In this document: in pieces, positions 16,976-33,896 of the stretch
Layout of the letters: the number at the start of each line of letters is the position of its first letter
How positions within the stretch are numbered: position 1 is the stretch's first letter
NCBI GenBank assembly: GCA_003249215.1
Contig: QKJR01000012.1
Coordinates: 1 to 64,000, forward strand
DNA from: Rhodobacterales bacterium
Lineage (GTDB): Bacteria > Pseudomonadota > Alphaproteobacteria > Rhodobacterales > Rhodobacteraceae
Length of the DNA: 64,000 nucleotides
Direction: 5' to 3'
The notes under the pieces: model-generated
What the model was told of the DNA's origin: nothing
Seen by the model: the letters and a program-made list of their open reading frames with translations, nothing else
Database searches by the model: none
Position numbers and translations under genes: made by a program

Positions 16976-17114
16976 CTGCCCTGCCTCTCTGATTGTCACG
17001 CGCCGGTCCTGCGGCCGCGGTCACGATAGCAGCGTGCCGCGCGACATCAACGGCGCAGTGCCGCGTCGGGGCCGCGAAGATTGACAACCCCGCCCGCGGC
17101 CGTTTACCTGACCG

Positions 17115-17306
17115 CGATGGTTCCCAATGCCATGGGATGAAAAGGGAACACGGTGAGGATTACCCATCAGGGGCCAAATCCGTGACTGCCCCCGCAACTG
17201 TGAGCGGCGAGTCCCCGGTCAGATGCCACTGGCTGTTCCGATCCACCGGAACATCAGCCGGGAAGGCGACCGGGCGCAACGACCCGCAAGTCAGGAGACC
17301 TGCCAT
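17115..17306 (+). ncRNA. Cobalamin riboswitch upstream of cbiMNQO
   Basis: GGTTCCC...GGGATGAAAAGGGAACACGGTG...AATCCGTGACTGCCCCCGCAACTGTGA...GATGCCACTG...GGGAAGGC...GACCCGCAAGTCAGGAGACCTGCC. Confidence 0.95.
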
Positions 17307-17387
17307 CGCTCTTGCGCTGCAAGCCGTCCGGGGCGGGGTGTCCCTGGGTCATTCGATAGCAGCGCGTCCGATGTGGAAGGATAAGAC

Positions 17388-18056
17388 ATGCACATCATGG
17401 AGGGCTTTCTGCCCGCGTCCCATGCTTTGGGATGGACCGCCGTTTCGGCCCCGTTCGTGATCGCGGGGGCCCTGCGCATCCGCACGATCATCCGCGACAC
17501 GCCCGAGGCGCGGATGACCCTCGCGGCCTCGGGGGCCTTCGCCTTCGTCCTCTCGGCGCTCAAGATCCCCTCGGTCACCGGCTCGTGCTCGCATCCGACC
17601 GGGACCGGACTCGGCGCCATCGTCTTCGGGCCGTCGGTGATGGCGCTGATGGGGGTGATCGTTCTGCTGTTCCAGGCGCTCTTGCTGGCCCATGGCGGGC
17701 TGACGACGCTTGGCGCCAATACCTTCTCGATGGCGGTGGTCGGGCCCTGGGTGGCCTGGGGGGTGTGGAAACTGGCCGGGCGTCTGGGCCTCTCGTTCGC
17801 GGTCTCGGTCTTCCTCGCCGCCGCGCTCGGCGATCTGGCGACCTATGTGACGACCTCGGTGCAACTGGCGCTGGCCTATCCCGACCCGGCCTCGGGCATT
17901 GCGGGGGCTGCGCTGAAATTCGGCTCGATCTTCGCCGTGACACAGGTGCCGCTCGCCATCGCCGAGGGGCTGCTGACTGTCGTCGTGATCGAGGCACTCT
18001 CGGGCAAGACCCGCGACAAGGACCGTATCGCACTGCTCGCCGGAGGGGAAAAATGA
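17388..18056 (+). CDS. cbiM: Cobalt ECF transporter S component CbiM
   Basis: [17 protein letters not shown]-terminus, [21 protein letters not shown]. Confidence 0.96.
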
Positions 18057-18349
18057 TGTCGAAACGCTCGTATTGGATGCTGCTCGGTGTGGTGCTGATC
18101 GTTCTGATCCCGCTGATCCGGGGCGGTGAATTCGGCGGCGCCGATGGTCAGGCGGCCGATCTGGTCGAGGCGCGCGAGGGGTTCGCCCCGATCTTCGAGC
18201 CGATCTGGGAGCCGCCGAGCGGCGAGATCGAGAGCCTGTTCTTCTCGCTTCAGGCCGCCCTTGGCGCGCTGATCGTGGGCTATGCCATCGGCCGCGCCCG
18301 GGGTCGCCGTCAGGCGCTGGACGAGGCCGCTCGCCGGCCCTCGGCCTGA
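18053..18349 (+). CDS. cbiN: Cobalt transport auxiliary protein CbiN
   Basis: 98 aa, two TM segments, [37 protein letters not shown]; between cbiM and cbiQ, ATGA overlap. Confidence 0.93.
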
Positions 18350-18350
18350 G

Positions 18351-19085
18351 ATGGCGATCGGAACGCTCGACCGGGCCGCCAGTGTGAACCGCTGGCGGCA
18401 CCGGGCCCTGACCGAGAAGGCGCTGATCGGGCTCGGGTTTCTCGCGCTCGCACTGGCGCTGCCGCCCTGGCCGGGGGCGGCGCTGGTGGGCGCGGCGGTG
18501 CTCGGCTTCACCTTCCTCGGCGCGCGGGTGCCGCTCAGGCTCTGGGCGGCGGCGGTTGCCGCACCGCTCGGCTTTCTGGCGATCGGGGTCGCGACGCTGA
18601 TGGTGCAGATCGACGGCGCGGGGATCGCGCTGGCGCCGGACGGGGCCGAGCGCGCCGCGGGCCTTGGCCTGCGGGCGATGGCGGCGACGCTGTGCCTGAT
18701 GTTTCTGGCCTTCACCACGCCCGCGGCCGAGCTGATCGGCGGGCTGCGCGCGCTGCGTGTTCCCGCCGAGATCGTCGAGCTGGCGCTGCTCACCTATCGC
18801 TTCGTCTTCCTGCTCGCGGACAGCGCGGTCGCCATGACCACGGCGCAGCGCGCCCGTCTGGGCCATTCGAGCCGCGCGCGCTGGCTGCGCTCGACGGGCA
18901 TGGTGATCGCGAACCTTCTGCCCCGCGCGATGGACCGCGCCCGGCGGACGGAAATTGGCCTTGCCGCCCGCGGCTGGCAGGGGCAGATGCCGGTCCTGCA
19001 CACCCGCCCGCCGGTCTGCGCGCGGCGCATCGCGCTGGTGCTGGCGGTGCAGGCGGGGGTTCTGGCGCTGGGGGTTTGGGCATGA
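18351..19085 (+). CDS. cbiQ: Cobalt ECF transporter T component CbiQ
   Basis: Hydrophobic protein with C-terminal RARRTEIGLAARGWQG; position in cbiMNQO. Confidence 0.92.
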   Translation: MAIGTLDRAASVNRWRHRALTEKALIGLGFLALALALPPWPGAALVGAAVLGFTFLGARVPLRLWAAAVAAPLGFLAIGVATLMVQIDGAGIALAPDGAERAAGLGLRAMAATLCLMFLAFTTPAAELIGGLRALRVPAEIVELALLTYRFVFLLADSAVAMTTAQRARLGHSSRARWLRSTGMVIANLLPRAMDRARRTEIGLAARGWQGQMPVLHTRPPVCARRIALVLAVQAGVLALGVWA

Positions 19086-20556: not shown

Positions 20557-20616
20557 CGGGCGGCTCCTTGGTCCTTGACAGTGCCCGCGCCCTGCTTGAT
20601 GACAGGGGCATAGGCG

Positions 20617-20815
20617 CTGGTGCCTGTCTTAGGGCAGGCCAAAAGGGAATGCGACAGGATTTGGCCCAAGGCCCGGTCCAAGCGCAGCCGCCCCCGCGAC
20701 CGTGACCGGAAAGGTCTGTCCAATGTCACTGGCCGCAAGGTTCGGGAAGACGGGCAGAGCGCCGGGGCCAACCGCCCCGATATCCGCAAGCCGGGAGACC
20801 TGCCAGAGCCCGAAC
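20617..20815 (+). ncRNA. Cobalamin riboswitch upstream of the DUF1636-cobW-cobN operon
   Basis: GGTGCCTGTCTTAGGGCAGGCCAAAAGGGAATGCGACAGG...CAGCCGCCCCCGCGACCGTGA...TGTCACTG...GGGAAGACGGG...CCGCAAGCCGGGAGACCTGCC. Confidence 0.93.
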
Positions 20816-20911
20816 TGAAACGCGCGGACGGGGTGTGCCGTGACCTTCGGATATCGGGTCACGCGCACCCGTGCCGCAGGCTTATCCCGTTCGCCAAACC
20901 CGGGAGAGGCC

Positions 20912-21235
20912 ATGACCGCCGTTCTGCATGTCTGCACCACCTGCCGCGCCGGGCGCCGTCTGCATGACGCGCTTCTCGCCGCGGGCGCGCCCGAGGGCGT
21001 CACCATCCGCGCCGCCGAATGCCTCTCGGCCTGCGATCACGGTTGCAACGTGGCGCTCACCCGGCCCGGCGCCTGGTCCTATGTCTATGGCCGCCTGAGC
21101 ATGGACGACATCCCCGAGATCCTGCGCGGCGCGGGCCTCTATGCCGCGACCGCCGACGGCATCGTGCCCTGGCGCGAGCGCCCCGTGATTTTCCGCAAGC
21201 AAAGCCTTGCCCGCATCCCCCCGATGGAGCCCTGA
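20912..21235 (+). CDS. DUF1636 family protein, Cys-rich ferredoxin/thioredoxin-like
   Basis: LHVCTTCRAGRRLHDALL...AAECLSACDHGCNVALTRPGAWSYVYG; directly downstream of a B12 riboswitch. Confidence 0.85.
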   Translation: MTAVLHVCTTCRAGRRLHDALLAAGAPEGVTIRAAECLSACDHGCNVALTRPGAWSYVYGRLSMDDIPEILRGAGLYAATADGIVPWRERPVIFRKQSLARIPPMEP

Positions 21236-21236
21236 G

Positions 21237-22271
21237 ATGACCGACCTGACCAAGATCCCCGTCACCGTGATCACCGGCTTTCTGGGCGCGGGCAAGACCA
21301 CGCTGATCCGCCACCTGATGCAGAACCCGCAGGGCAAGCGCCTCGCCGTTCTGGTCAATGAATTCGGCACCGTGGGGGTGGATGGCGAGATCCTGAAATC
21401 CTGCGCCGATGCGAATTGCCCGGCCGAGAATATCGTGGAACTGGCGAACGGCTGCATCTGCTGCACCGTGGCCGATGATTTCATCCCGACGATCGAGGCG
21501 CTGATGGCCCTGCCCGAACGCCCCGAGCATATCCTGATCGAGACCTCGGGGCTTGCTCTGCCGAAGCCGCTCCTCAAGGCCTTCGACTGGCCCGCGATCC
21601 GCTCGCGCATCACGGTCGACGGGGTCGTCGCGCTGGCCGATGCCGAGGCGGTGGCGGCGGGTCGGTTTGCGCCCGATGTGGCCGCCGTCGATGCGCAGCG
21701 CGCGGCCGATGACAGCCTCGATCACGAAACGCCTTTGTCCGAGGTGTTCGAGGATCAGATCGCCTGCGCCGATATCATCTTGCTGACCAAGGCCGATCTG
21801 GCCGGTGAGGCGGGCCTTGCCGCCGCCCGCGCCGTGATCGAGGCCGAGGCGCCGCGCAAGCTGCCGATCCTGCCGGTGACCGAGGGCACGATCGACCCGC
21901 AGGTGATCCTCGGGCTCAATGCCGCGGCGGAGGATGATCTGGCCGCCCGCCCGAGCCACCATGACGGCCATGACGACCACGAGCATGACGATTTCGAAAG
22001 CGTGGTGATCGAGCTGCCCGAGATCGCCGATCCGGCCGATCTGACCGCCCGGATCGAGCGCCTCGCGCGCGAGCTGAACATCCTGCGCGTCAAGGGCCAT
22101 GTCGCGGTTGCGGGCAAGCCGATGCGCCTTCTGGTGCAGGCGGTGGGCGCGCGGGTGCGCCAGCAGTTCGACCGCCCCTGGGGCGCCGGGCCGCGGCTCT
22201 CGCGCCTCGTGGTCATCGCCGAGCATGACGACATCGACGAGGCCGCGATCCGCGCCGTTCTGGGGGTCTGA
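21237..22271 (+). CDS. cobW: Cobalamin biosynthesis protein CobW (GTPase metallochaperone)
   Basis: TVITGFLGAGKTTLIRH, CICCTVADDF, His-rich HHDGHDDHEHDD. Confidence 0.96.
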   Translation: MTDLTKIPVTVITGFLGAGKTTLIRHLMQNPQGKRLAVLVNEFGTVGVDGEILKSCADANCPAENIVELANGCICCTVADDFIPTIEALMALPERPEHILIETSGLALPKPLLKAFDWPAIRSRITVDGVVALADAEAVAAGRFAPDVAAVDAQRAADDSLDHETPLSEVFEDQIACADIILLTKADLAGEAGLAAARAVIEAEAPRKLPILPVTEGTIDPQVILGLNAAAEDDLAARPSHHDGHDDHEHDDFESVVIELPEIADPADLTARIERLARELNILRVKGHVAVAGKPMRLLVQAVGARVRQQFDRPWGAGPRLSRLVVIAEHDDIDEAAIRAVLGV

Positions 22272-22279
22272 GGCGCGCC

Positions 22280-25200
22280 ATGCACGTCGTCTTCCGCGAC
22301 AGCCGGGGTCTCGAGGCGGCCGATGCGCCCTTCGATGCGGGTCAGGATCCGGCGGATCTGATCGTGCTGTCGTTTTCCGACAGCGACCTTGGCGCCTTCG
22401 CGGCGGGCTGGCACCGGGCGGGCGGTGCGCTGCCCTCGGTGCGGTTGCAAAACCTCGTGGCGCTGCGCCACCCCGTTTCGGTCGATACCTATCTCGAGCG
22501 CACCTTGTCGGGCGCGCGCGCGATCCTGATCCGGCTGATCGGGGGCGAGGCCTATTGGCCCTATGGCCTGGCCTCGGTGCAGGATCTGGCGCGGCGGCGG
22601 GGGATCGCGCTGGCCGTTCTGCCCGCGGACGGACGGCCCGATCCCGCGCTCGATGCCGCCTCGACGGTGCCGGTCTCGGTGCTGCGGCGGTTGCAGGATC
22701 TGTGCGATGCGGGCGGCGCGGTCGCGGCGCAGGCGGCGCTCGCGCAGCTTGCCTTGGCCGCGGGGATCTATGCCGGGCCGGCGCCGGGCGACAAGCGCGT
22801 GCCCGACATGGGCTTTTACGACCCCGACCGGGGCGTGCTCGCCGCTCCGCCCGAGGGGCGCGCGATCTGGGTCAGCTTCTATCGCAGCTATCTGAGTGCC
22901 GCCGATACCGCCCCCGTCGATGCGCTGATCCGCGCCTTCCGGGCCGAAGGGTTCGCGGCGGCCGGGGTCTTCGCGCCCTCGCTCAAGGCGCCGGGTTTTG
23001 CCGACTGGCTGCGCCCGACGCTGACCGCGACACCGCCGCGCGCCGTGGTCAATGCCACCGCCTTTTCCGCGCGCGGTGACGATGGCACGACGCCCTTCGA
23101 CGGGGTGGATTGCCCGGTGTTTCAGGTCGCTCTGTCCACCGCGCGGCGCCGCGACTGGGTGGCCGAGGATCGCGGCCTTTCGCCCGCCGATCTCGCCATG
23201 CATGTGGTCCTGCCCGAGGTGGACGGGCGGCTGTTCGCGGGGCTGATCTCGTTCAAATCGCCGGGCAAGCGCGACCCGGATCTGCAATATGCCCGCTTCG
23301 CCCATCGCCCCGATGCCGAGCGGGTGGCGGCAGTTGTGGCACGGGTCAAGGCTTGGCTTCGGCTGGCCGAGGCGCCCACACCCGCGCGGCGGATCGCGGT
23401 GGTGCTCTCCACCTATCCCGGCCGCGCCTGGCAGATCGCCCATGCCGTCGGCCTCGATGCGCTGGCCTCGGCCGAAGCGGTGCTGGAGGATCTCGGCGCC
23501 AAGGGTTCGGGCCTTGGGCAGGCGCTGCAACGCGAAACGCTCGACTGGCCGCTGACCGAATATCGCGCGGCGCTCGCCCACCTGCCCGAGACCCTGCAAC
23601 AGGCGCTGCACGCGGCCTGGGGGGCGGCCGAGGATGACCCCGCCTGCACGGGCGGTGCTTTCCGTTTCGCTGCGGCGCAGCATGGCGCGGCGCTGGTCGC
23701 GCTGCAGCCCGAGCGGGGCGAGGTGGAGCAGCGCGATGACGACTATCACGACCTCGCCCGCGTGCCGCGGCACGGCTATGTCGCCTTCTACCTGTGGCTG
23801 CGGTCGCAGGGGCTGCACGCGCTCGTCCACATGGGCGCGCATGGCACGCTCGAATGGCTGCCGGGGAAATCGGTCGCGCTCTCGGCGGCCTGCTGGCCCG
23901 AGGCGCTGATCGGCGATCTGCCGGTGATCTATCCCTTCATCGTCAACGACCCCGGCGAGGCGGCGCAGGCGAAGCGACGGATCGGCGCGCTCACGCTCGG
24001 CCATCTGCCGCCGCCGCTGACCGCCGCCCGCCTGCCCGAGGGGATGGCCCGGCTCGAGCGGCTGCTCGACGAATATGCGACCGCCGACGGGCTCGACCCC
24101 GCGCGGCGCGACCGGCTGATCGCCGACATCCGCGCCGAGGCGCAGGCCGCGGGCGTCGAGGAGGATCTGGGCATTCCGCCGGGCGCAGGCGCCGCCGAGG
24201 CGATCACCCGGATCGACCGCTTCGTCTGCGACATCAAGGAAAGCCAGTATGGCGAGGGGCTGCATGTCTTCGGCCAGGGCGCCTGCGGGGCAGAGGAACG
24301 TGACGGCCTGCGCCGCGCTCTGGCGGGTCTGCGCGTCGCCCCCGGCCCTTCGGGCAGTCCGGCGCGGGGGCGTTCGGATGTGCTGCCCACCGGGCGCAAC
24401 CTGTTTGCCGTCGATCCCCGCGCCGTGCCGAGCCGCGCGGCCCATGCGCAGGGCGTGAAACTGGCCGAGGAGCTGCTGCGCAAGCACCTTCAGGATCAGG
24501 GCGACTGGCCGCGGGGCCTCGTCGTCGATCTGTGGGGCAGCGCGACGATGCGCACCGCGGGCGAGGAATTCGCGATGGCGCTGCATCTGGCGGGCCTCGC
24601 GCCGGTCTGGGATGCCGGATCGGGGCGGGTCTCGGGCGTCGAGGTGGTGCCGCTCGCGCTGCTCGGGCGGCCGCGGATCGACGTGACGCTGCGGATCTCG
24701 GGGCTCTTTCGCGACGTGTTCCCGGGGCTTGCCACGCTCTTCGAGACCGGGGCCGAGATGCTGGCCGCGCGCGACGAGGCCCCCGAGGACAACCCCTATG
24801 CCCGCCGCGCCGCGCGGGTCTATGGGCCGCGGCCGGGGCAATACGGGCTTGGGATGGGCGTGGCGATGGACGCTTTCACCCCCGAGGCGCGGGCCGCCGC
24901 GGGCGAGGCCTGGATCGCCGCCTCGAGCTGGGCGATCGGGGCGGATGGCGCCTCGCGCGATGACCGTGCGGGGCTCGAGGCGCGGCTGCGGGGCGCGGAT
25001 ACATTCGTCCATGCGCAGGACCTGCCGGAGAGCGACCTGCTGCTGGCCGCCGATTACGCCGCGCATGAGGCGGGCTTTGCCGCCGCGATGGCGCGTCTGG
25101 GGACCGCGAAACCCGCGCTCTATCACCTCGACGCGACGCAACCGGACCGCCCCCGCGCCCGCAGCCTAGCCGAGGAAATCGCCCGCGTGGTGCGCGCCCG

Positions 25201-25501
25201 CGCCGCCGATCCGCACTGGGCCGAGGGGATGATGCGCCACGGCTTTCGCGGCGCGGCCGAGATCGCGGCGACCGCCGATCACATGGCGGCCTTTGCGCAT
25301 CTCGCGGGCGTCGTGCCGCCGCATCTGTTCGACCTTTACCACGAGGCGACGCTGGGCCGCGCCGATCTGGTCGATTTCATGGCGCGCGACAACCCAGGCG
25401 CGCTCGAGGCGCTGCGCGATCTCTTCCGCCGTCTGGCCGAGGCCGGATTGTGGGTGACGCGCCGCAACTCGATCGCCGCGGCCCTGGAGGGGGGCGCATG
25501 A
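22280..25501 (+). CDS. cobN: Cobaltochelatase subunit CobN
   Basis: 1073 aa; HMGAHGTLEWLPGKSVALSAACWPEALIGDLPVIYPFIVNDPGEAAQAKRR magnesium/cobalt chelatase large-subunit signature. Confidence 0.96.
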   Translation: MHVVFRDSRGLEAADAPFDAGQDPADLIVLSFSDSDLGAFAAGWHRAGGALPSVRLQNLVALRHPVSVDTYLERTLSGARAILIRLIGGEAYWPYGLASVQDLARRRGIALAVLPADGRPDPALDAASTVPVSVLRRLQDLCDAGGAVAAQAALAQLALAAGIYAGPAPGDKRVPDMGFYDPDRGVLAAPPEGRAIWVSFYRSYLSAADTAPVDALIRAFRAEGFAAAGVFAPSLKAPGFADWLRPTLTATPPRAVVNATAFSARGDDGTTPFDGVDCPVFQVALSTARRRDWVAEDRGLSPADLAMHVVLPEVDGRLFAGLISFKSPGKRDPDLQYARFAHRPDAERVAAVVARVKAWLRLAEAPTPARRIAVVLSTYPGRAWQIAHAVGLDALASAEAVLEDLGAKGSGLGQALQRETLDWPLTEYRAALAHLPETLQQALHAAWGAAEDDPACTGGAFRFAAAQHGAALVALQPERGEVEQRDDDYHDLARVPRHGYVAFYLWLRSQGLHALVHMGAHGTLEWLPGKSVALSAACWPEALIGDLPVIYPFIVNDPGEAAQAKRRIGALTLGHLPPPLTAARLPEGMARLERLLDEYATADGLDPARRDRLIADIRAEAQAAGVEEDLGIPPGAGAAEAITRIDRFVCDIKESQYGEGLHVFGQGACGAEERDGLRRALAGLRVAPGPSGSPARGRSDVLPTGRNLFAVDPRAVPSRAAHAQGVKLAEELLRKHLQDQGDWPRGLVVDLWGSATMRTAGEEFAMALHLAGLAPVWDAGSGRVSGVEVVPLALLGRPRIDVTLRISGLFRDVFPGLATLFETGAEMLAARDEAPEDNPYARRAARVYGPRPGQYGLGMGVAMDAFTPEARAAAGEAWIAASSWAIGADGASRDDRAGLEARLRGADTFVHAQDLPESDLLLAADYAAHEAGFAAAMARLGTAKPALYHLDATQPDRPRARSLAEEIARVVRARAADPHWAEGMMRHGFRGAAEIAATADHMAAFAHLAGVVPPHLFDLYHEATLGRADLVDFMARDNPGALEALRDLFRRLAEAGLWVTRRNSIAAALEGGA

Positions 25502-26636
25502 GCGGGGCGTTTCAGGTGCAGGGCTGGTGCCCCGGGGCGCTGCGGCCGATGGCTTCGGGCGACGGGCTGGTGGTGCGGGTGCGCGCGCCGGGCGGGCGGC
25601 TCTCGCCTGCGCAGGCGGCTGGCATCGCGGTGGCGGCGCGGGCGCATGGCAACGGGCTGATCGACCTCTCGGCGCGGGGGAACCTGCAACTGCGCGGGGT
25701 GAGCGAGGCCAGCCACGCGCCGCTGATCGACGATCTGCGCGCGCTCGGGCTGATCGACGCGGATGCAGGTCAGGAGGCGCGGCGCAATCTCCTGATCACC
25801 CCCTTCGCCGATGCCGAAACCGACGCGCTGGCGGCGGCGATCGTGGCCGCGCTGCCCGCGATGCCGGATCTGCCGGGCAAGTTCGGGATCGTGGTCGACA
25901 CCGGTCCCGCGCCGGTTCTGGACGGGAGCGCGGGGGACATCCGGCTCGAACGCGAAACCGGCGGCGGGCTGATCCTGCGCTGCGAGGGCGCGGCGCTTGG
26001 CGCCCCGGTCGCGCCCGAGGAGGCTCCCTCGGCGGTGATCGCGCTGGCGCGGTGGTTCGTCGAGGCGGGCGGCGTGACCGACGGGCGGGGCCGGATGGCC
26101 GCGCTGATCGCGCGCGGGCTCACGCCCGGGGGCGCGCTCGCGCCGCGTGTGGCCCCAGCGCCCGCGCTGGACGCACCCGAACCGGCGCTGGTGGCGCAGG
26201 GCACGCTGGTCGGATTTGCCTTCGGCCAGATGGAGGCCGGGACGCTGGCGGCGCTCGCCACGCGCGGCGCGATGCGCCTCACGCCGTGGCGGATGCTGCT
26301 GATCGAGGGGCTGTCGCAAATGCCCGACCTGCCCGGCCTGATCACGCAACCCGACGATCCCTTGCGCCGGGTCGAGGCCTGCACCGGCGCGCCCGGCTGC
26401 CTTCAGGCGCGGGCCCCGGTGCGCGCCCTCGCCACCCGGCTCGCGCCGCAGGTGCCCCCGGGGCGGCGGCTGCATGTCAGCGGCTGCGCCAAGGGCTGCG
26501 CCCATCCCGGGCGGGCCGATCTTACCCTTGTGGCCACCGATGCGGGGTTCGATCTGATCCGCGACGGCCGCGCACAAGACACACCCGAACGGCGCGGGCT
26601 CGCCGCCGATGACATCGACCTTCAAGGGGATTTCTG

Positions 26637-26637
<1 letters not shown>
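25498..26637 (+). CDS. cobG: Precorrin-3B synthase CobG
   Basis: Sulfite/nitrite reductase-like: NGLIDLSARGNLQLRGV, VEACTGAPGC...HVSGCAKGCAHPG; ATGA overlap with cobN. Confidence 0.93.
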
Positions 26638-27266
<629 letters not shown>

Positions 27267-27268
27267 CC

Positions 27269-28012
27269 ATGACCGGAAAGATCATCTGCGTGGGGCTCGG
27301 GCCCGGCGATCCCGATCTGATCTCGGTGCGGGCCGACCGGCTGATCCGGGGCGCGCGCGACGTGGCCTTCTTCCGCAAGGCCGGGCGGCAGGGGCAGGCG
27401 CGGCGCATCGTCGAGGGGATGCTGGCGCCCGGCACCGCCGAACATGCGATGGAATATCCGGTCACGACCGAGCTGCCCTTCGACAGCCCCGCCTATATCG
27501 CGCAGCTCTCGGCCTTCTACGACGACTGGACCGCGCGGCTGCGCGCGATGGCCGAGGCGGGGCGCGAGGTGATCGTGCTCTGCGAGGGCGACCCCTTCTT
27601 CTACGGCTCGTTCATGCATCTTTATGTCCGGCTGCGCGATCTGGTGCCGGTCGAGGTGGTGCCCGGCATTCCCGGCATGGTCGGCTGCTGGAACGCGGTC
27701 GGGCAGCCGATCACCTGGGGCGACGATGTCTTGACCGTGCTGATGGGCACCCTGCCCGAGGCCGATCTGATCCGCCACATGCGCGGGGCCGAGGCGCTGG
27801 TGATCATGAAGACCGGGCGCAACCTGCCGCGGGTGCGGCGCGCACTGGCGACGGCCGGGCGGCTCGATCAGGCCTGGCTCGTCGAGCGCGGCACGATGCC
27901 GGGGCAGCGCATGGTGCCGCTGGCCGAGGTGGGCGACGACGACTGCCCCTATTTCGCGATCGTGCTGGTCCATGGCCACGGCCGCCGCCCCGTCGCCGAG
28001 GCCGCAGAATGA
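27269..28012 (+). CDS. cobI: Precorrin-2 C20-methyltransferase
   Basis: ICVGLGPGDPDLISVRADRLI, CEGDPFFYGSFMHLY, VVPGIPGM; alternative start 27263. Confidence 0.93.
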   Translation: MTGKIICVGLGPGDPDLISVRADRLIRGARDVAFFRKAGRQGQARRIVEGMLAPGTAEHAMEYPVTTELPFDSPAYIAQLSAFYDDWTARLRAMAEAGREVIVLCEGDPFFYGSFMHLYVRLRDLVPVEVVPGIPGMVGCWNAVGQPITWGDDVLTVLMGTLPEADLIRHMRGAEALVIMKTGRNLPRVRRALATAGRLDQAWLVERGTMPGQRMVPLAEVGDDDCPYFAIVLVHGHGRRPVAEAAE

Positions 28013-28749
28013 GTGCGGGCTGGATCGCCGTTGCGGGCCTCGGCCCCGGCGACGAGGCGTTGGTGACACCCGAGGTCACCGCGGCTTTGGCCGAGGCCAC
28101 CGATGTCGTGGGCTACATCCCCTATGTCGCCCGCGTCGCCCCGCGCGAGGGCCTGACACTGCACCCCTCCGACAACCGCGTCGAGCTGGACCGGGCGGGC
28201 TTCGCGCTCGATCTGGCCGCAAAGGGGCGGCGGGTGGTCATCGTCTCCTCGGGCGATCCCGGGGTCTTCGCCATGGCCTCGGCGCTTTTCGAGGCGCTCG
28301 AGGCGCGGCCCGACCGTCAGCAGACCGACATCCGCATCCTGCCCGGGATCACCGCGATGCTCGCGGCCGCCGCGCGGGCCGGTGCGCCGCTGGGGCATGA
28401 CTTCTGCGCGATCAACCTCTCGGACAATCTCAAACCCTTCGCCGAGGTCGAGCGCCGCTTGCGCCATGCCGCGCGCGGGGGCTTTGCGATGGCCTTCTAT
28501 AATCCCCGCTCGAAGGCGCGCCCGCATCAGTTTGCCCGCGTGCTCGAGATCCTGCGCGCGGAATGCGAGGGGGCGCGGCTGATCCTCTTTGCCCGCGCCG
28601 TCTCGACCCCGGACGAGACGATCCGCTGCGTCACGCTGGCCGAGGCCACGCCCGAGATGGCCGACATGCGCACCGTCGTCATCGTCGGCAACGAGGCCAC
28701 CCGCCGTGTCGGGCGCTGGGTCTATACGCCGCGTTCGGTGCCGGTATGA
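28009..28749 (+). CDS. cobJ: Precorrin-3B C17-methyltransferase
   Basis: VAGLGPGDEALVTPEV, DVVGYIPYV, SSGDPGVFAMA, LGHDFCAINLSDNLKP, AFYNPRSKAR. Confidence 0.95.
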   Translation: MSAGWIAVAGLGPGDEALVTPEVTAALAEATDVVGYIPYVARVAPREGLTLHPSDNRVELDRAGFALDLAAKGRRVVIVSSGDPGVFAMASALFEALEARPDRQQTDIRILPGITAMLAAAARAGAPLGHDFCAINLSDNLKPFAEVERRLRHAARGGFAMAFYNPRSKARPHQFARVLEILRAECEGARLILFARAVSTPDETIRCVTLAEATPEMADMRTVVIVGNEATRRVGRWVYTPRSVPV

Positions 28750-29474
28750 GCGAGCCAGCCGAGCACCTCCTCGACGGAGCCCACCACCCTGCGCGGCGGC
28801 AGCGCGGGCCGGTCGATCAGGACCACGGGCAGGCCAAGCGCGCGCGCCGCGTGCATCTTGGCCTCGGCCCCCGCCCCGCCCGCGTTCTTGGCGACGATAT
28901 GGGTGATGCCATGGGCGCGCATCAGATCGGCATCGGCCCCGGCCTCGAACGGCCCGCGCGCGATCACGACGCTGGTCTGCGGCAGGGGCAGCGGGGCTTC
29001 GGGCGGATCGACGAGGCGCAAAAGGTAATGGTGTTGCGGCTTGGCGGCGAAGGGCTCGAGCCCCTGCTTGCCGGTGGCGAGGAACACCCGCGCGGGCGTC
29101 CCGGGCAGCGCGGCGACCGCGGCCTCGACATCGGGCACGACGCGCCAGTCGTCGCCCTGCCCCGCCACCCATGCCTGGCGTTCGAGCGCGATCAGCGGAA
29201 CGCCGGTTTCGGCACAGGCGGCAATCGTGTTGCGGCTCATCTGCGCGGCGAAGGGATGGGTCGCGTCGATCAGATGCGTGATCCGCTCGCGGCGCAGATA
29301 GTCGATGAGCCCCGCGACCCCGCCAAAGCCGCCGATCCGCATCGGCAGGGGCTGCGCGACCGGCGCCCCGGTCCGCCCGGCATAGGAAAAGATCGCGTCG
29401 CTGCCCGACTCGGCCAGCGCGCGCGCAAGGCGGCTGGCTTCGGTCGTGCCGCCCAGCAGGAGGATGCGCGTCAT
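28722..29474 (-). CDS. cobK: Precorrin-6A reductase, antisense to the surrounding cob operon
   Basis: RILLLGGTTEASRLARAL, HLIDATHPFAAQMSRN, FLATGKQGLEPF, IVAKNAGGAGAEAKMHAARALGLPVVLIDRPALP. Confidence 0.95.
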   Translation of the reverse strand: MTRILLLGGTTEASRLARALAESGSDAIFSYAGRTGAPVAQPLPMRIGGFGGVAGLIDYLRRERITHLIDATHPFAAQMSRNTIAACAETGVPLIALERQAWVAGQGDDWRVVPDVEAAVAALPGTPARVFLATGKQGLEPFAAKPQHHYLLRLVDPPEAPLPLPQTSVVIARGPFEAGADADLMRAHGITHIVAKNAGGAGAEAKMHAARALGLPVVLIDRPALPPRRVVGSVEEVLGWLAHTGTERGV

Positions 29475-30651
29475 GTCTGATCCCTGGCTCGCCATCATCG
29501 GTCTGGGCGAAGATGGACCGGAGGGGCTGTCCTCGGCAAGCCGTGCCGCGCTGGCGGGCGCCGAGGTGGTCTTCGGCGCGCCGCGGCATCTTGCGCTGGT
29601 CGATCCGGGCGCGCGGGGGCGGGACTGGCCGGTGCCCTTCGACCTTGCGCCGCTGCTGGCGCTGCGCGGGCGGCGGGTGGCGATGCTGGTCTCGGGCGAT
29701 CCGTTCTGGTTTGGTGCGGGGGGATCGGTTGCGGCGCATCTGGCGCCGGGTGAGTGGCGCGCCTTTCCGGTGGCGGGGGTCTTTTCGCTGGTGGCCTCGC
29801 GGCTCGGCTGGCGGCTTGAGGAGTGTCTTTGCCTTGGCCTGCACGCAGCCCCCTTTGCCCGTTTGCGCCCGGTTCTGGCGCGCGGGGTGCGGGCGATCTG
29901 CACGCTGCGCGATGCGGCGGCGGTCGCGGGGCTCACGGGCTGGCTTGCCGAGAATGGCTTCGGTGCCGCGCGTCTGACGGTCTGCGAGGCGATGGGCGGC
30001 CCGCGCGAGCGGCTGCGTGCAGGGACCGACTGGCCCGACATTGCGGCGCCGGTGGCGGTGGCGATCGACGGCACGGACCTGCCGCGCGACGCCGGTCTGC
30101 CGCGCGGCTTCGGCCTGCCCGACGCGCTGTTTGAGAGCGACGGGCAGATCACCAAGGCCCCGGTGCGGGCGATGACCCTAGCCGCGCTTGGCCCCCGACC
30201 GGGCGAGGTGCTGTGGGATATCGGCGGCGGCTCGGGGTCGGTTTCGGTCGAATGGTGTCTGGCGGGTGGCCGCGCGCATTGCCTCGAGCAGCGGGCCGAT
30301 CGCGTGACCAATATCCGCGCCAATGCCGATGGCTTCGGCCTCGCGCACCGGCTGACGGTTCGCCATGGCGCGGCGCGCGACCTGATCGGCGATCTGCCCG
30401 CGCCCGATGCGGTCTTCGTCGGTGGCGGGGGCGAGGCCGCGCTTTATGAAATGCTCTGGCCGCTCCTGCCCGCGGGGGCGCGGATCGTGGCCAATGGCGT
30501 CACGCTCGAGACCGAGGGCGTGCTCGCCGATCTGCAGGCGCGCCACGGCGGCACGCTGATGCGGCTCGAGCTGTCCCAGGCCGCGACGCTCGGGCGCTTC
30601 CGCGACTGGCGCGCCGCGCGGCCGGTGGTGCAATGGCGGGCGGTCAGATGA
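29473..30651 (+). CDS. cobL: Precorrin-6Y C5,15-methyltransferase (decarboxylating)
   Basis: [51 protein letters not shown]-terminal [33 protein letters not shown]. Confidence 0.95.
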
Positions 30652-31016
30652 GGGTGGCGGGGTTTGGATGCCGCGCGGGGGTCACGCACGAGGCGCTGGC
30701 TGCGCTCCTCGGTGCGGCCGAGGCCGAGGCGGGCCCCGTCGCGGCGCTGGCCTGTCCGCCGCATCGGGCGGAGGAGCCGGGCCTTCGTGCCCTCGCCGCC
30801 GCGCGCCGCCTGCCCCTGAAGGCCGTGCCCGTCGCGGGCGTCGAAACCCCCACCCGCTCGGCCCGGATCGCCGAGTGCTATGGCACCGGATCGGTCGCCG
30901 AGGCGGCGGCGCTGGTCGCCGCAGGCCCCGGCGCAAGAATCACGCGGACGCGGATCGTCGCGCCCGATGGCATGGCCACCTGCGCCATCGCCGAAACGAA
31001 GGACACCCCAGAATGA
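30648..31016 (+). CDS. cobE: Cobalamin biosynthesis protein CobE (CbiG C-terminal-like)
   Basis: [21 protein letters not shown]...[23 protein letters not shown]. Confidence 0.9.
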
Positions 31017-31786
31017 CCGTTCACTTCATCGGCGCCGGGCCTGGCGCGGCCGACCTGATCACGCTGCGCGGACGCGATCTGATCGCCGCCTGCCCGGTCT
31101 GCCTCTATGCCGGCAGCCTCGTGCCCGAGGCGCTTCTGGCGCATTGCCCGCCCGGCGCGCGGATCGTGAATACCGCGCCGCTCAGCCTCGATCAGATCAT
31201 CGCCGAGATCGTCGCCGCCGATGCCGCGGGTCAGGACGTGGCGCGGCTGCATTCGGGGGATCTCTCGGTCTGGTCGGCGATGGGCGAGCAACTGCGCCGG
31301 TTGCGCGTGCTCGGCATTCCCTATGACGTGACGCCCGGCGTGCCCTCCTTTGCCGCCGCCGCCGCGGTGCTCGGGGCCGAACTGACCCTGCCCGGCGTCG
31401 CGCAATCGGTCGTGCTGACCCGCACCTCGGGGCGGGCAAGCGCGATGCCCGAGGGCGAGACGCTGGAAAATTTCGCGCGCACCGGGGCGACGCTTGCGAT
31501 CCATCTCTCGGTTCATGTGCTGGCCGATGTGGTCGCGCGCCTGACGCCCTCCTACGGTGCCGATTGCCCGGTCGCGGTGGTCTTCCGCGCGAGCTGGCCC
31601 GATCAGAAGGTGGTGCGCGCGACGCTCGGCACGATCGAGAGCGCGATCGGCGCGGGCGAGCGCACGGCGCTGATCCTTGTCGGGCGCGCGCTCGGTGCCG
31701 AGGAGTTCGACGAGAGCCGGCTTTACGCGGGCGACTACGACCGCCGCTATCGCCCGGTCGGCACCGCGCCCCGGTTCCCCGAATGA
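31013..31786 (+). CDS. cobM: Precorrin-4 C11-methyltransferase
   Basis: [65 protein letters not shown]. Confidence 0.95.
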
Positions 31787-33126
31787 TGCCCCCCGGCCTG
31801 CTGATCTCGGCGCCCGCCTCGGGGACGGGCAAGACCACGGTCACGCTCGGGCTGATCGCGGCGCTGCGGGCGCGGGGGCTGGTGGTGCAGCCCTTCAAAT
31901 GCGGGCCCGATTACATCGACCCGGCGTTTCACGCGGCGGCGGCGGGGCGGGCTTCGGTCAACCTCGACAGCTGGGCGATGGCGCCGGGGCGGATCGCGGC
32001 GCTCGCCGGCGCGGCGGCGGGGGCCGATCTGGTGATCGCCGAGGGCTCGATGGGGCTCTTCGATGGGGTTGCCCGCGCGGGTGAGACCGGGACCGGCGCC
32101 AGCGCCGATATCGCCGCGCGGATGGGCTGGCCGGTGATCGCGGTGCTCGATGTCTCGGGTCAGGCGCAGACGGCGGCGGCGGTGGCGGCGGGGCTTGCCG
32201 CGTTTCGTCCGGGGTTGCGGGTTGCGGGGGTGATCCTGAACAAGGTCGCCTCGCCCCGGCACGAGGCGCTGGTGCGGCTCGGGATGCAGGCTGCGGGCCT
32301 GCCGGTCTTCGGCGTTCTGCCGCGCCGGGCCGCGGTCGCCCTGCCCGAGCGGCATCTGGGTCTGGTGCAGGCCGAAGAGCTGCCACGGCTGAGCGCGATC
32401 CTGTCCGAGGCGGCCGCCTTCGTGGCCGAACATTGTGATCTCGAGGCGATCCGGGCGGCGGCCGGGGCTGCGCCCGTCGCGACGCCTTCGGCCGCCCCGG
32501 TCCCGGCCCCCGGCGCGCGGATCGCGCTCGCCCGGGATGCCGCCTTCTCCTTCGTCTATCCGCATCTGCTGTCCGACTGGCACGCGCAGGGGGCGACGAT
32601 CCTGCCCTTCTCGCCCCTCGCCGATCAGGCGCCCGACCCCTCGGCCACGGTCTGCTGGCTGCCGGGCGGCTACCCCGAGTTGCACGCGGGCCGCCTTGCC
32701 GCGGCCGAGCGCTTCCGCGCCGGGCTGACGGAGTTCGCCCGGACCCGGCCCGTCCATGGCGAATGCGGGGGCTATATGGCGCTTGGCGCGGGGCTGGTTG
32801 CGGCCGATGGCACGCGGCATCGGATGGCGGGGCTGCTCGGGCTGGAGACGAGCTTTGCCAAGCGCCGGATGCATCTGGGCTATCGGCTGGCGCGGCCGCT
32901 GCACCCGCTGCCCGGGCCGCTCGCAACGCAGCCGCTGCGCGGGCATGAATTCCACTACGCCACGATCCTCGCACAGCCCGACGCCCCGCTCGCCCGCGTC
33001 GAGGATGCCAATGGCGCGCCGGTGGCCGAGACCGGCTCGATCCGCCAGGCATCGGGCGGCGGGCAGGTCAGCGGCACCTTCTTCCACCTGATCGCCCCGG
33101 CCTCCGGCGCAGGAGTTGAGCAATGA
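31783..33126 (+). CDS. cobB: Cobyrinate a,c-diamide synthase
   Basis: [64 protein letters not shown]. Confidence 0.95.
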
Positions 33127-33896
33127 TAGACCTGACCCTGATCGGGATCGGAACCGGCAACCCCGATCACGTGACGCGCGAGGGCGCGCGCGCGATGAAC
33201 GCGGCCGATCTGATCCTCATTCCGCTCAAGGGCGAGGACAAGGCCGATCTGGCGGGTCTGCGAATGGAGATCTGCCGCAGTTGCGTGACCAATCCCGCGA
33301 CCCGGATCGAGGGGTTCGACCTGCCGGTGCGCGACCCGGGGACGCCCGATTACCTTCGGCGGGTGAGCGACTGGCACGACCGGATCGCCGAGGTCTGGCA
33401 CGACGCGATCGCGCGGCATCTGGCGGCGGGGGGCGGGCCAAGGGTGGCCTTCCTCGTCTGGGGGGACCCCTCGCTTTACGACAGCACGCTCAGGATCGCC
33501 GAGCGGCTGGGGCGGCGGATCACCCTGACGCTGCGGGTCATTCCGGGGATCACGGCGATCCAGACGCTGTGCGCGGCCCATGCCATTCCGCTCAACGATC
33601 TGGCCGCGCCCGTGACCATCACCACCGGGCGGCGCCTGCGCGAAGCGGGCTGGCCCGCGGGGGTGGATACCGTGGTGGTGATGCTCGACAGCGGCGGTGC
33701 CTTCGAGGCGGTCGCGCCCGAGGGCGTGACGATCTGGTGGGGCGCCTATGTCGGCATGGCGCGGCAGATGCTGATCGCCGGGCCGCTGAGCGACGTGGCC
33801 GGGCGGATCCTCGAGGCCCGCGCCAAGGCCCGCGCCGAGCATGGCTGGATCATGGATATCTATCTGATGCGCCGCGCGGCCGAGCCCCGCCCCTAG
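33123..33896 (+). CDS. cobF: Precorrin-6A synthase (deacetylating)
   Basis: LTLIGIGTGNPDHVTREGARAMNAADLILIPLKGEDKADLAGLRMEIC. Confidence 0.95.
   Translation: MIDLTLIGIGTGNPDHVTREGARAMNAADLILIPLKGEDKADLAGLRMEICRSCVTNPATRIEGFDLPVRDPGTPDYLRRVSDWHDRIAEVWHDAIARHLAAGGGPRVAFLVWGDPSLYDSTLRIAERLGRRITLTLRVIPGITAIQTLCAAHAIPLNDLAAPVTITTGRRLREAGWPAGVDTVVVMLDSGGAFEAVAPEGVTIWWGAYVGMARQMLIAGPLSDVAGRILEARAKARAEHGWIMDIYLMRRAAEPRP

Follow-up and report, generated by a model that had tools for sequence, protein, structure and literature searches.

The cobK gene of this Rhodobacterales cob operon runs against all of its neighbours, and the plus strand opposite it carries a long open reading frame, here called the bridge ORF, that starts in the stop of cobJ and stops in the start of cobL. 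The geometry of this frame, the avoidance within cobK of the codons that would close it, and a promoter-shaped pattern of synonymous constraint inside cobL can all be read directly from the sequence. The reading that we favour, and consider probable, is that the plus-strand mRNA would be translated across the reversed gene by way of the bridge, with cobK expressed from a promoter of its own within cobL.

The cob cluster and its reversed gene

The window, that is, the whole stretch of 64,000 nucleotides analysed, holds a plus-strand cob cluster with the following features:

17101-17321, plus strand: first cobalamin riboswitch, upstream of the cluster
20601-20821, plus strand: second cobalamin riboswitch, ahead of cobW-cobN-cobGHIJ and onwards (RF00174, 85.4 bits)
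21207-22271, plus strand: cobW (Pfam and NCBIfam)
22280-25501, plus strand: cobN (Pfam and NCBIfam)
25498-26637, plus strand: cobG (Pfam and NCBIfam)
26637-27266, plus strand: cobH (Pfam and NCBIfam)
ending at 28012, plus strand: cobI (Pfam and NCBIfam)
28009-28749, plus strand: cobJ, precorrin-3B C17-methyltransferase (TIGR01466, 1.5e-85)
28722-29474, minus strand: cobK, precorrin-6A reductase (PF02571, 2.3e-73; NF005968, 1.1e-99; translation)
29473-30651, plus strand: cobL, precorrin-6Y methyltransferase, CbiE+CbiT (TIGR02467, 3.7e-25; TIGR02469, 2e-25)
downstream of cobL and ending at 33896, plus strand: cobE, cobM, cobB and cobF (Pfam and NCBIfam)

An earlier note on this DNA had placed a reversed cobK between cobJ and cobL with no free space on either side, and all of its coordinates proved correct against the sequence, the translation and the profile matches. 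The gene encodes a full-length CobK/CbiJ (PF02571, 247 bits with a cut-off of 28.6; NF005968, 333 bits with a cut-off of 231) and reads on the minus strand from an ATG at 29474 to a stop ending at 28722. Its 3' end overlaps the end of cobJ (28749) by 28 bp, and the CATG at 29472-29475 is common to its ATG and that of cobL (29473-29475), two further details of the note that the sequence bears out; free intergenic space is absent on both sides. Profile assignments and coordinates likewise agree with its description of the other cob genes as plus-strand and mostly overlapping: cobG, cobH, cobI and cobJ occupy 25498-28749, cobL, cobE, cobM, cobB and cobF occupy 29473-33896, and most junctions are stop/start overlaps. 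The genome assembly, 82% complete, yielded a single cobK copy. No sigma70-type consensus promoter was detected in 28000-30700 and no terminators at the gene ends around cobK. Nor does a cobalamin riboswitch lie near cobK, both being upstream on the plus strand, and the gene is outside riboswitch control save through overlap of the RNAs. The riboswitch at 17101-17321 precedes cobalt transporter genes at 17432-19082 (CbiN and CbiQ domains).

Conservation of the flip in related genomes, which the note had put forward as a check, was found throughout. Loci came from 80 named loci, 27 near relatives and evenly drawn class and phylum samples, and were annotated with profiles built in this analysis, start codons being assigned by rule. 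The main set comprises 142 non-redundant loci in which cobJ, cobK and cobL are adjacent, and covers Rhodobacterales, Hyphomicrobiales, Acetobacterales, Sphingomonadales, Burkholderiales and Halomonas. Every one of the 142 carries cobK in antisense orientation; the loci are related by descent and give counts that are not independent events, though their synonymous sites are far diverged. On the strength of this uniformity the embedded arrangement is, as judged from locus comparison, old and not due to chance, and it is already present in known clusters; the annotation of Rhizobium etli CFN 42, for instance, has an antisense cobK with the same overlaps. The exact CATG start overlap occurs in 88 of the 142 loci, and the tail overlap of cobJ and cobK is mostly 25 or 28 bp.

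The reversal is a property of this cluster type. The idea that cobK is antisense in every type was rejected, as sense cobK occurs in others, and in Pseudomonas-like and other clusters cobK is co-directional with cobL. A second alphaproteobacterial order places J-M before K, with cobK convergent with J-M and not embedded. In examples of this order (L138, L143, L149, L201, L204) the right neighbour of cobK is a gene of about 1.2 kb on the strand of cobK, possibly a cbiD, and the order may illustrate how cobK turned round before cobF replaced cbiD. One candidate evolutionary intermediate (L196) was rejected, the genes beside its cobK being unrelated. Eight Burkholderiales loci (L043, L050, L067, L079, L084, L094, L096, L107) and Halomonas cupida (L077) have a cob cluster of the alphaproteobacterial type; the Comamonadaceae and Halomonas copies include both the reversed cobK and an open bridge, which suggests transfer of the whole block. 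One genome of the same genus carries two different cob clusters on two contigs (L003 and L029), each with an antisense cobK. At two further loci (L227, L229) a 155-bp gap between cobK and cobL contains a palindromic, repeat-like insert between the divergent starts.

The open frame opposite cobK

28746-29480, plus strand: bridge ORF of 244 codons, in codon register with cobK antisense (translation; kept in 131 of 142 loci)

Codon for codon, the bridge is the reverse complement of cobK. Its start overlaps the cobJ stop in an ATGA (28746-28749), and its own stop, the TGA at 29478-29480, falls within the cobL start (ATGTCTGA, 29473-29480), five bases into that gene. This placement recurs across the loci, of which 105 are of the overlap type. 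Among these, the in-register bridge start lies at the cobJ stop as ATGA in 66, as GTGA in 24 and as a TGATG-type junction in 5, which gives a spacing of the coupled type in 95 of the 105, and the start follows a few bases beyond the stop in another 8. At the other end, the bridge stop sits at +5 of the cobL ATG (ATGNNTGA) in 94 and at +8 in 7. Both ends of the bridge thus have the stop/start overlaps that mark coupled co-directional frames (spacings of -4, -1 and -8). The last sense codon of cobJ ends in A in 92 of the 142 loci, whereas such codons make up 7.5% of cobJ. In the combined ranking of cobJ, cobK and cobL, cobL codon 2 comes second in constraint, and it is the T at its third position that completes the bridge TGA. 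Where cobK and cobL are separated by a gap, the bridge stop is still no more than 30 nt from the cobL start in 27 of 32 loci, and the phase is kept in 7 of 9 loci that lack the cobJ-cobK overlap (p=0.008).

Stops in the bridge frame can arise solely from the cobK codons TTA, CTA and TCA, the reverse complements of the three stop codons. Relative to cobJ and cobL of the same locus, no other codon in embedded cobK has an odds ratio as low as these three (CTA 0.23, TCA 0.27, TTA 0.34), with a median of 0.85 for codons ending in A. Fifty bridge-frame stops were observed, as against 214 in synonymous shuffles, and three loci, low in GC or distant, account for 33 of the fifty. Both remaining plus-strand frames opposite cobK are near expectation, with 711 stops for 556 expected and 734 for 883 expected, and the controls contain 218 with 222 expected by synonymous shuffle. 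The deficit appears within each of the larger groups, with 3 stops observed and 62 expected in Rhodobacterales, 2 and 18 in Hyphomicrobiales, and 2 and 10.8 in Burkholderiales.

That the open frame might be a by-product of GC-rich codon usage, opposite a gene reversed by descent, is a natural thought, as open antisense frames in codon register are common in GC-rich genomes and the phase of the overlap would be inherited. Descent does explain the orientation of cobK itself. As an account of the open frame we consider it highly improbable: it was rejected by comparison with cobJ and cobL of the same locus and with non-embedded cobK at matched GC3. Between GC3 0.7 and 0.8 the bridge frame has 4 stops where 85.6 are expected and the controls 36 where 25 are expected, and the avoidance that codon usage would impose on cobK anywhere is absent from 58 non-embedded cobK genes (CTA 1.10, TCA 0.76, TTA 0.89). 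Codon usage also leaves the start and stop placement at both ends unexplained. These comparisons indicate that the openness of the plus-strand frame opposite cobK is under selection, beyond base composition. An in-register stop within cobK is present in 18 loci, mostly at the normal ends of the bridge, and four loci have clear internal stops (L122, L140, L231, L237), all low-GC or distant, L122 and L140 being of very low GC3; given these stops, the bridge is not indispensable everywhere.

Because only translation reads a frame and its stops, the plus-strand RNA across cobK has presumably long been translated, and probably still is; translation across cobK in turn calls for read-through transcription from cobJ to cobL. 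It is therefore very probable that plus-strand RNA spans cobJ, cobK and cobL, to which the lack of any sign of a cobL promoter in cobK also points. The earlier note had held that any long plus transcript must carry a complete cobK antisense RNA, and such a transcript is made very probable by the loss of stop codons in just one frame opposite cobK.

The register sets third positions of cobK against first positions of the bridge, so a peptide under selection can be sought in the synonymous sites of cobK. Over 50 disjoint pairs, the difference at 4-fold sites is 0.423 for cobK, 0.412 for cobJ and 0.422 for cobL (p=0.63). A gene-like start and stop, and a frame open in most loci, would fit a functional protein gene encoded antisense to cobK. 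We nevertheless think a protein gene very doubtful: the 4-fold sites of cobK diverge as fast as those of its neighbours, codon constraint in cobK is no higher than in cobJ or cobL, the bridge product has no Pfam match, and its translation is a GC-rich antisense peptide. Selection on an encoded protein, the mark of a functional overlapping antisense gene, is thus absent from the bridge. Since synonymous sites of cobK are not slow, the peptide does not appear to be selected, and since the peptide is not conserved, it is the openness that selection would act on. Translation across the region, and not the peptide, would then be what counts.

Probable start signals of cobK and cobL

29534-29543, minus strand: -35-like element of the predicted cobK promoter (CGGCTTGCCG; core CTTGCC, 29540-29535), inside cobL codons 21-24
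29510-29515, minus strand: -10-like element CATCTT of the predicted cobK promoter, inside cobL codons 13-15, with an 18-nt spacer
29456-29464, plus strand: Shine-Dalgarno-like word of cobL, CAGGAGGAT, from the antisense of cobK codons 4-6 (sequence)

The strongest synonymous constraint in cobJ, cobK and cobL falls on cobL codons 12-23 (family-wise p=0.0017 in the genus and 0.023 over 82 loci); nothing was seen at these codons in 30 gapped loci. The constraint is two-part, with codons 12-14 and 22-23 constrained and the spacer codons free, a pattern that ranks first of 715 triplets; of the 826 codons in the three genes, the three under the strongest constraint include codons 22 and 23. On the cobK strand the order is CTTGC(C/A) and then, 18 nt after the TTG hexamer, CATCTT, which in the commonest case ends 35 nt before the cobK start. 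CTTGCC corresponds to the -35 motif cTTGcc of primary promoters in an alphaproteobacterium (PMC9549626). Measured against a sigma70-type promoter, with hexamers 16-18 nt apart, the spacer is 18 nt and CATCTT matches the consensus in part, with A-11 and T-7 retained; the element is conserved as DNA. The two-part footprint supports the proposal of the earlier note that the cobK promoter lies inside cobL, and the promoter predicted from it very probably lies in the 5' coding region of cobL.

The promoter-like element is absent from Burkholderiales and from most gapped loci. Its CTTGC part accompanies the start overlap in 76 of 102 loci and occurs in 2 of 29 others, a strong raw association that is not phylogenetically independent; dependence on the overlap was rejected, since the link reflects clade membership (10 independent pairs, 2.2 in the same direction and 1.1 in the opposite). 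A genome-wide motif was likewise rejected, the full pattern being present only at the cobK site in this genome, with looser matches elsewhere. An RpoH-type promoter for cobK (CTTG...CCAT; cf. PMC3441632) was tried and set aside; its spacing is long, and nothing decides it against sigma70. A second, weaker peak of synonymous conservation lies at 29676-29712, in cobL codons 69-80 (family-wise p of about 0.09 in the genus).

For cobL, the Shine-Dalgarno-like word is present in 87 of 105 loci, compared with 13% of random windows. Given this word, coupling between bridge and cobL may not be essential for the cobL start. The word lies inside cobK, and might be taken to go with a cobL promoter there too, such that no plus-strand RNA spans all of cobK. 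We consider this very unlikely. A synonymous scan detected no constraint at cobK codons 10-30, the expected site of a cobL promoter, the interval 28000-30700 lacks a sigma70-like site, and stop avoidance along cobK needs translation from the cobJ side.

Mechanism and relation to known systems

According to the favoured reading, transcription of this one-way plus-strand operon, with cobK reversed in its middle, would proceed from cobJ through the cobK region into cobL. Ribosomes ending cobJ would restart at the overlapping ATG or GTG, cross about 244 codons antisense to cobK and end within the cobL start, where the same or other ribosomes would begin cobL, and cobK would be transcribed from its own promoter within the 5' part of the cobL coding region. 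Operon RNA left untranslated loads Rho, giving rise to polarity (PMC12548453), and the likely benefit of the open frame would be that a 0.73-kb stretch is spared untranslated exposure to Rho termination and decay. A likely second benefit would be that cobL translation is kept coupled to that of cobJ.

The closest known layout is the noncontiguous operon menE-menC-MW1733-ytkD-MW1731 of S. aureus (PMC7154746), in which a reversed gene also lies wholly inside a co-directional operon and is flanked, as here, by cofactor biosynthesis genes. A reversed gene inside an operon, the layout that defines this class, is found in the window and at all 142 J-K-L loci. In S. aureus, however, base pairing joins the opposite mRNA to an untranslated stretch inside the operon RNA, whereas at the cob locus the corresponding stretch is an open frame, conserved and coupled to both flanking genes. 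We accordingly file the cob locus as a variant of the noncontiguous operon and not a plain member, because 131 of 142 loci keep a frame open opposite cobK, with a coupled start and a coupled stop.

This difference bears on the suggestion of antisense control, by which pairing of the plus-strand RNA with cobK mRNA, RNase III and polymerase collision would set CobK opposite to the riboswitch-controlled genes. The match to the S. aureus menE-menC-MW1733 case (PMC7154746) speaks for it; so do the signs of a read-through RNA and of a separate promoter for cobK, and the riboswitches serve the plus-strand genes. We nonetheless judge it unlikely. The paired stretch in S. aureus is untranslated, while the frame here is selected to be open and pairing should be limited; as a purpose, antisense control is less likely because ribosome-covered plus-strand RNA would be less free to pair with cobK mRNA. 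CobK is moreover required whenever the rest of the pathway is, which leaves opposite control without an obvious use, and no sign of such regulation is found in the sequence itself. A search of open-licence papers found none on cobK antisense control or start sites, and we make no claim of priority.

The ends of the bridge resemble coupled overlapping genes, with their NTGA, TGATG and NTGNNTGA spacings; -4, -1 and -8 spacings are enriched in co-directional coupled gene pairs (PMC12548453). Unlike such genes, the middle frame here appears to have no selected product and is antisense to another gene. The bridge also resembles antisense overlapping genes, asa of EHEC among them, where an open frame lies antisense to a known gene; in that account (PMC6294744) functional proteins are proposed, whereas the peptide sequence of the bridge is unconstrained. 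In the classical aerobic cob cluster of Pseudomonas denitrificans SC510 / Ensifer adhaerens, cobH-I-J-K-L are reported to overlap pairwise (PMC4070679); the genes are the same five, the opposite strand passes without comment there, and cobE, cobF and cobB are placed differently.

The chances seem evenly balanced that bridge ORFs form a general class, in bacterial operons that contain a reversed gene, of coupled frames that would take ribosomes past that gene and be selected for translation and not for product. The cob locus would offer a sequence-level account of what allows a long operon to carry a reversed gene, namely that the opposite strand is kept translatable. If this is true, it amounts to evolutionary evidence for read-through transcription obtained without RNA data, and it cautions that selection can keep long antisense ORFs that yield no useful protein. 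Under the same condition, one synonymous change in cobK, to CTA, TTA or TCA, is predicted to harm the downstream genes. For vitamin B12 production strains, the relevance is that cob blocks are placed on one promoter despite cobK facing the opposite way. The Ensifer overexpression constructs cobF-M and cobJ-M each use one promoter (PMC9157374), and if cobK is reversed in them as in relatives, it would be transcribed antisense there.
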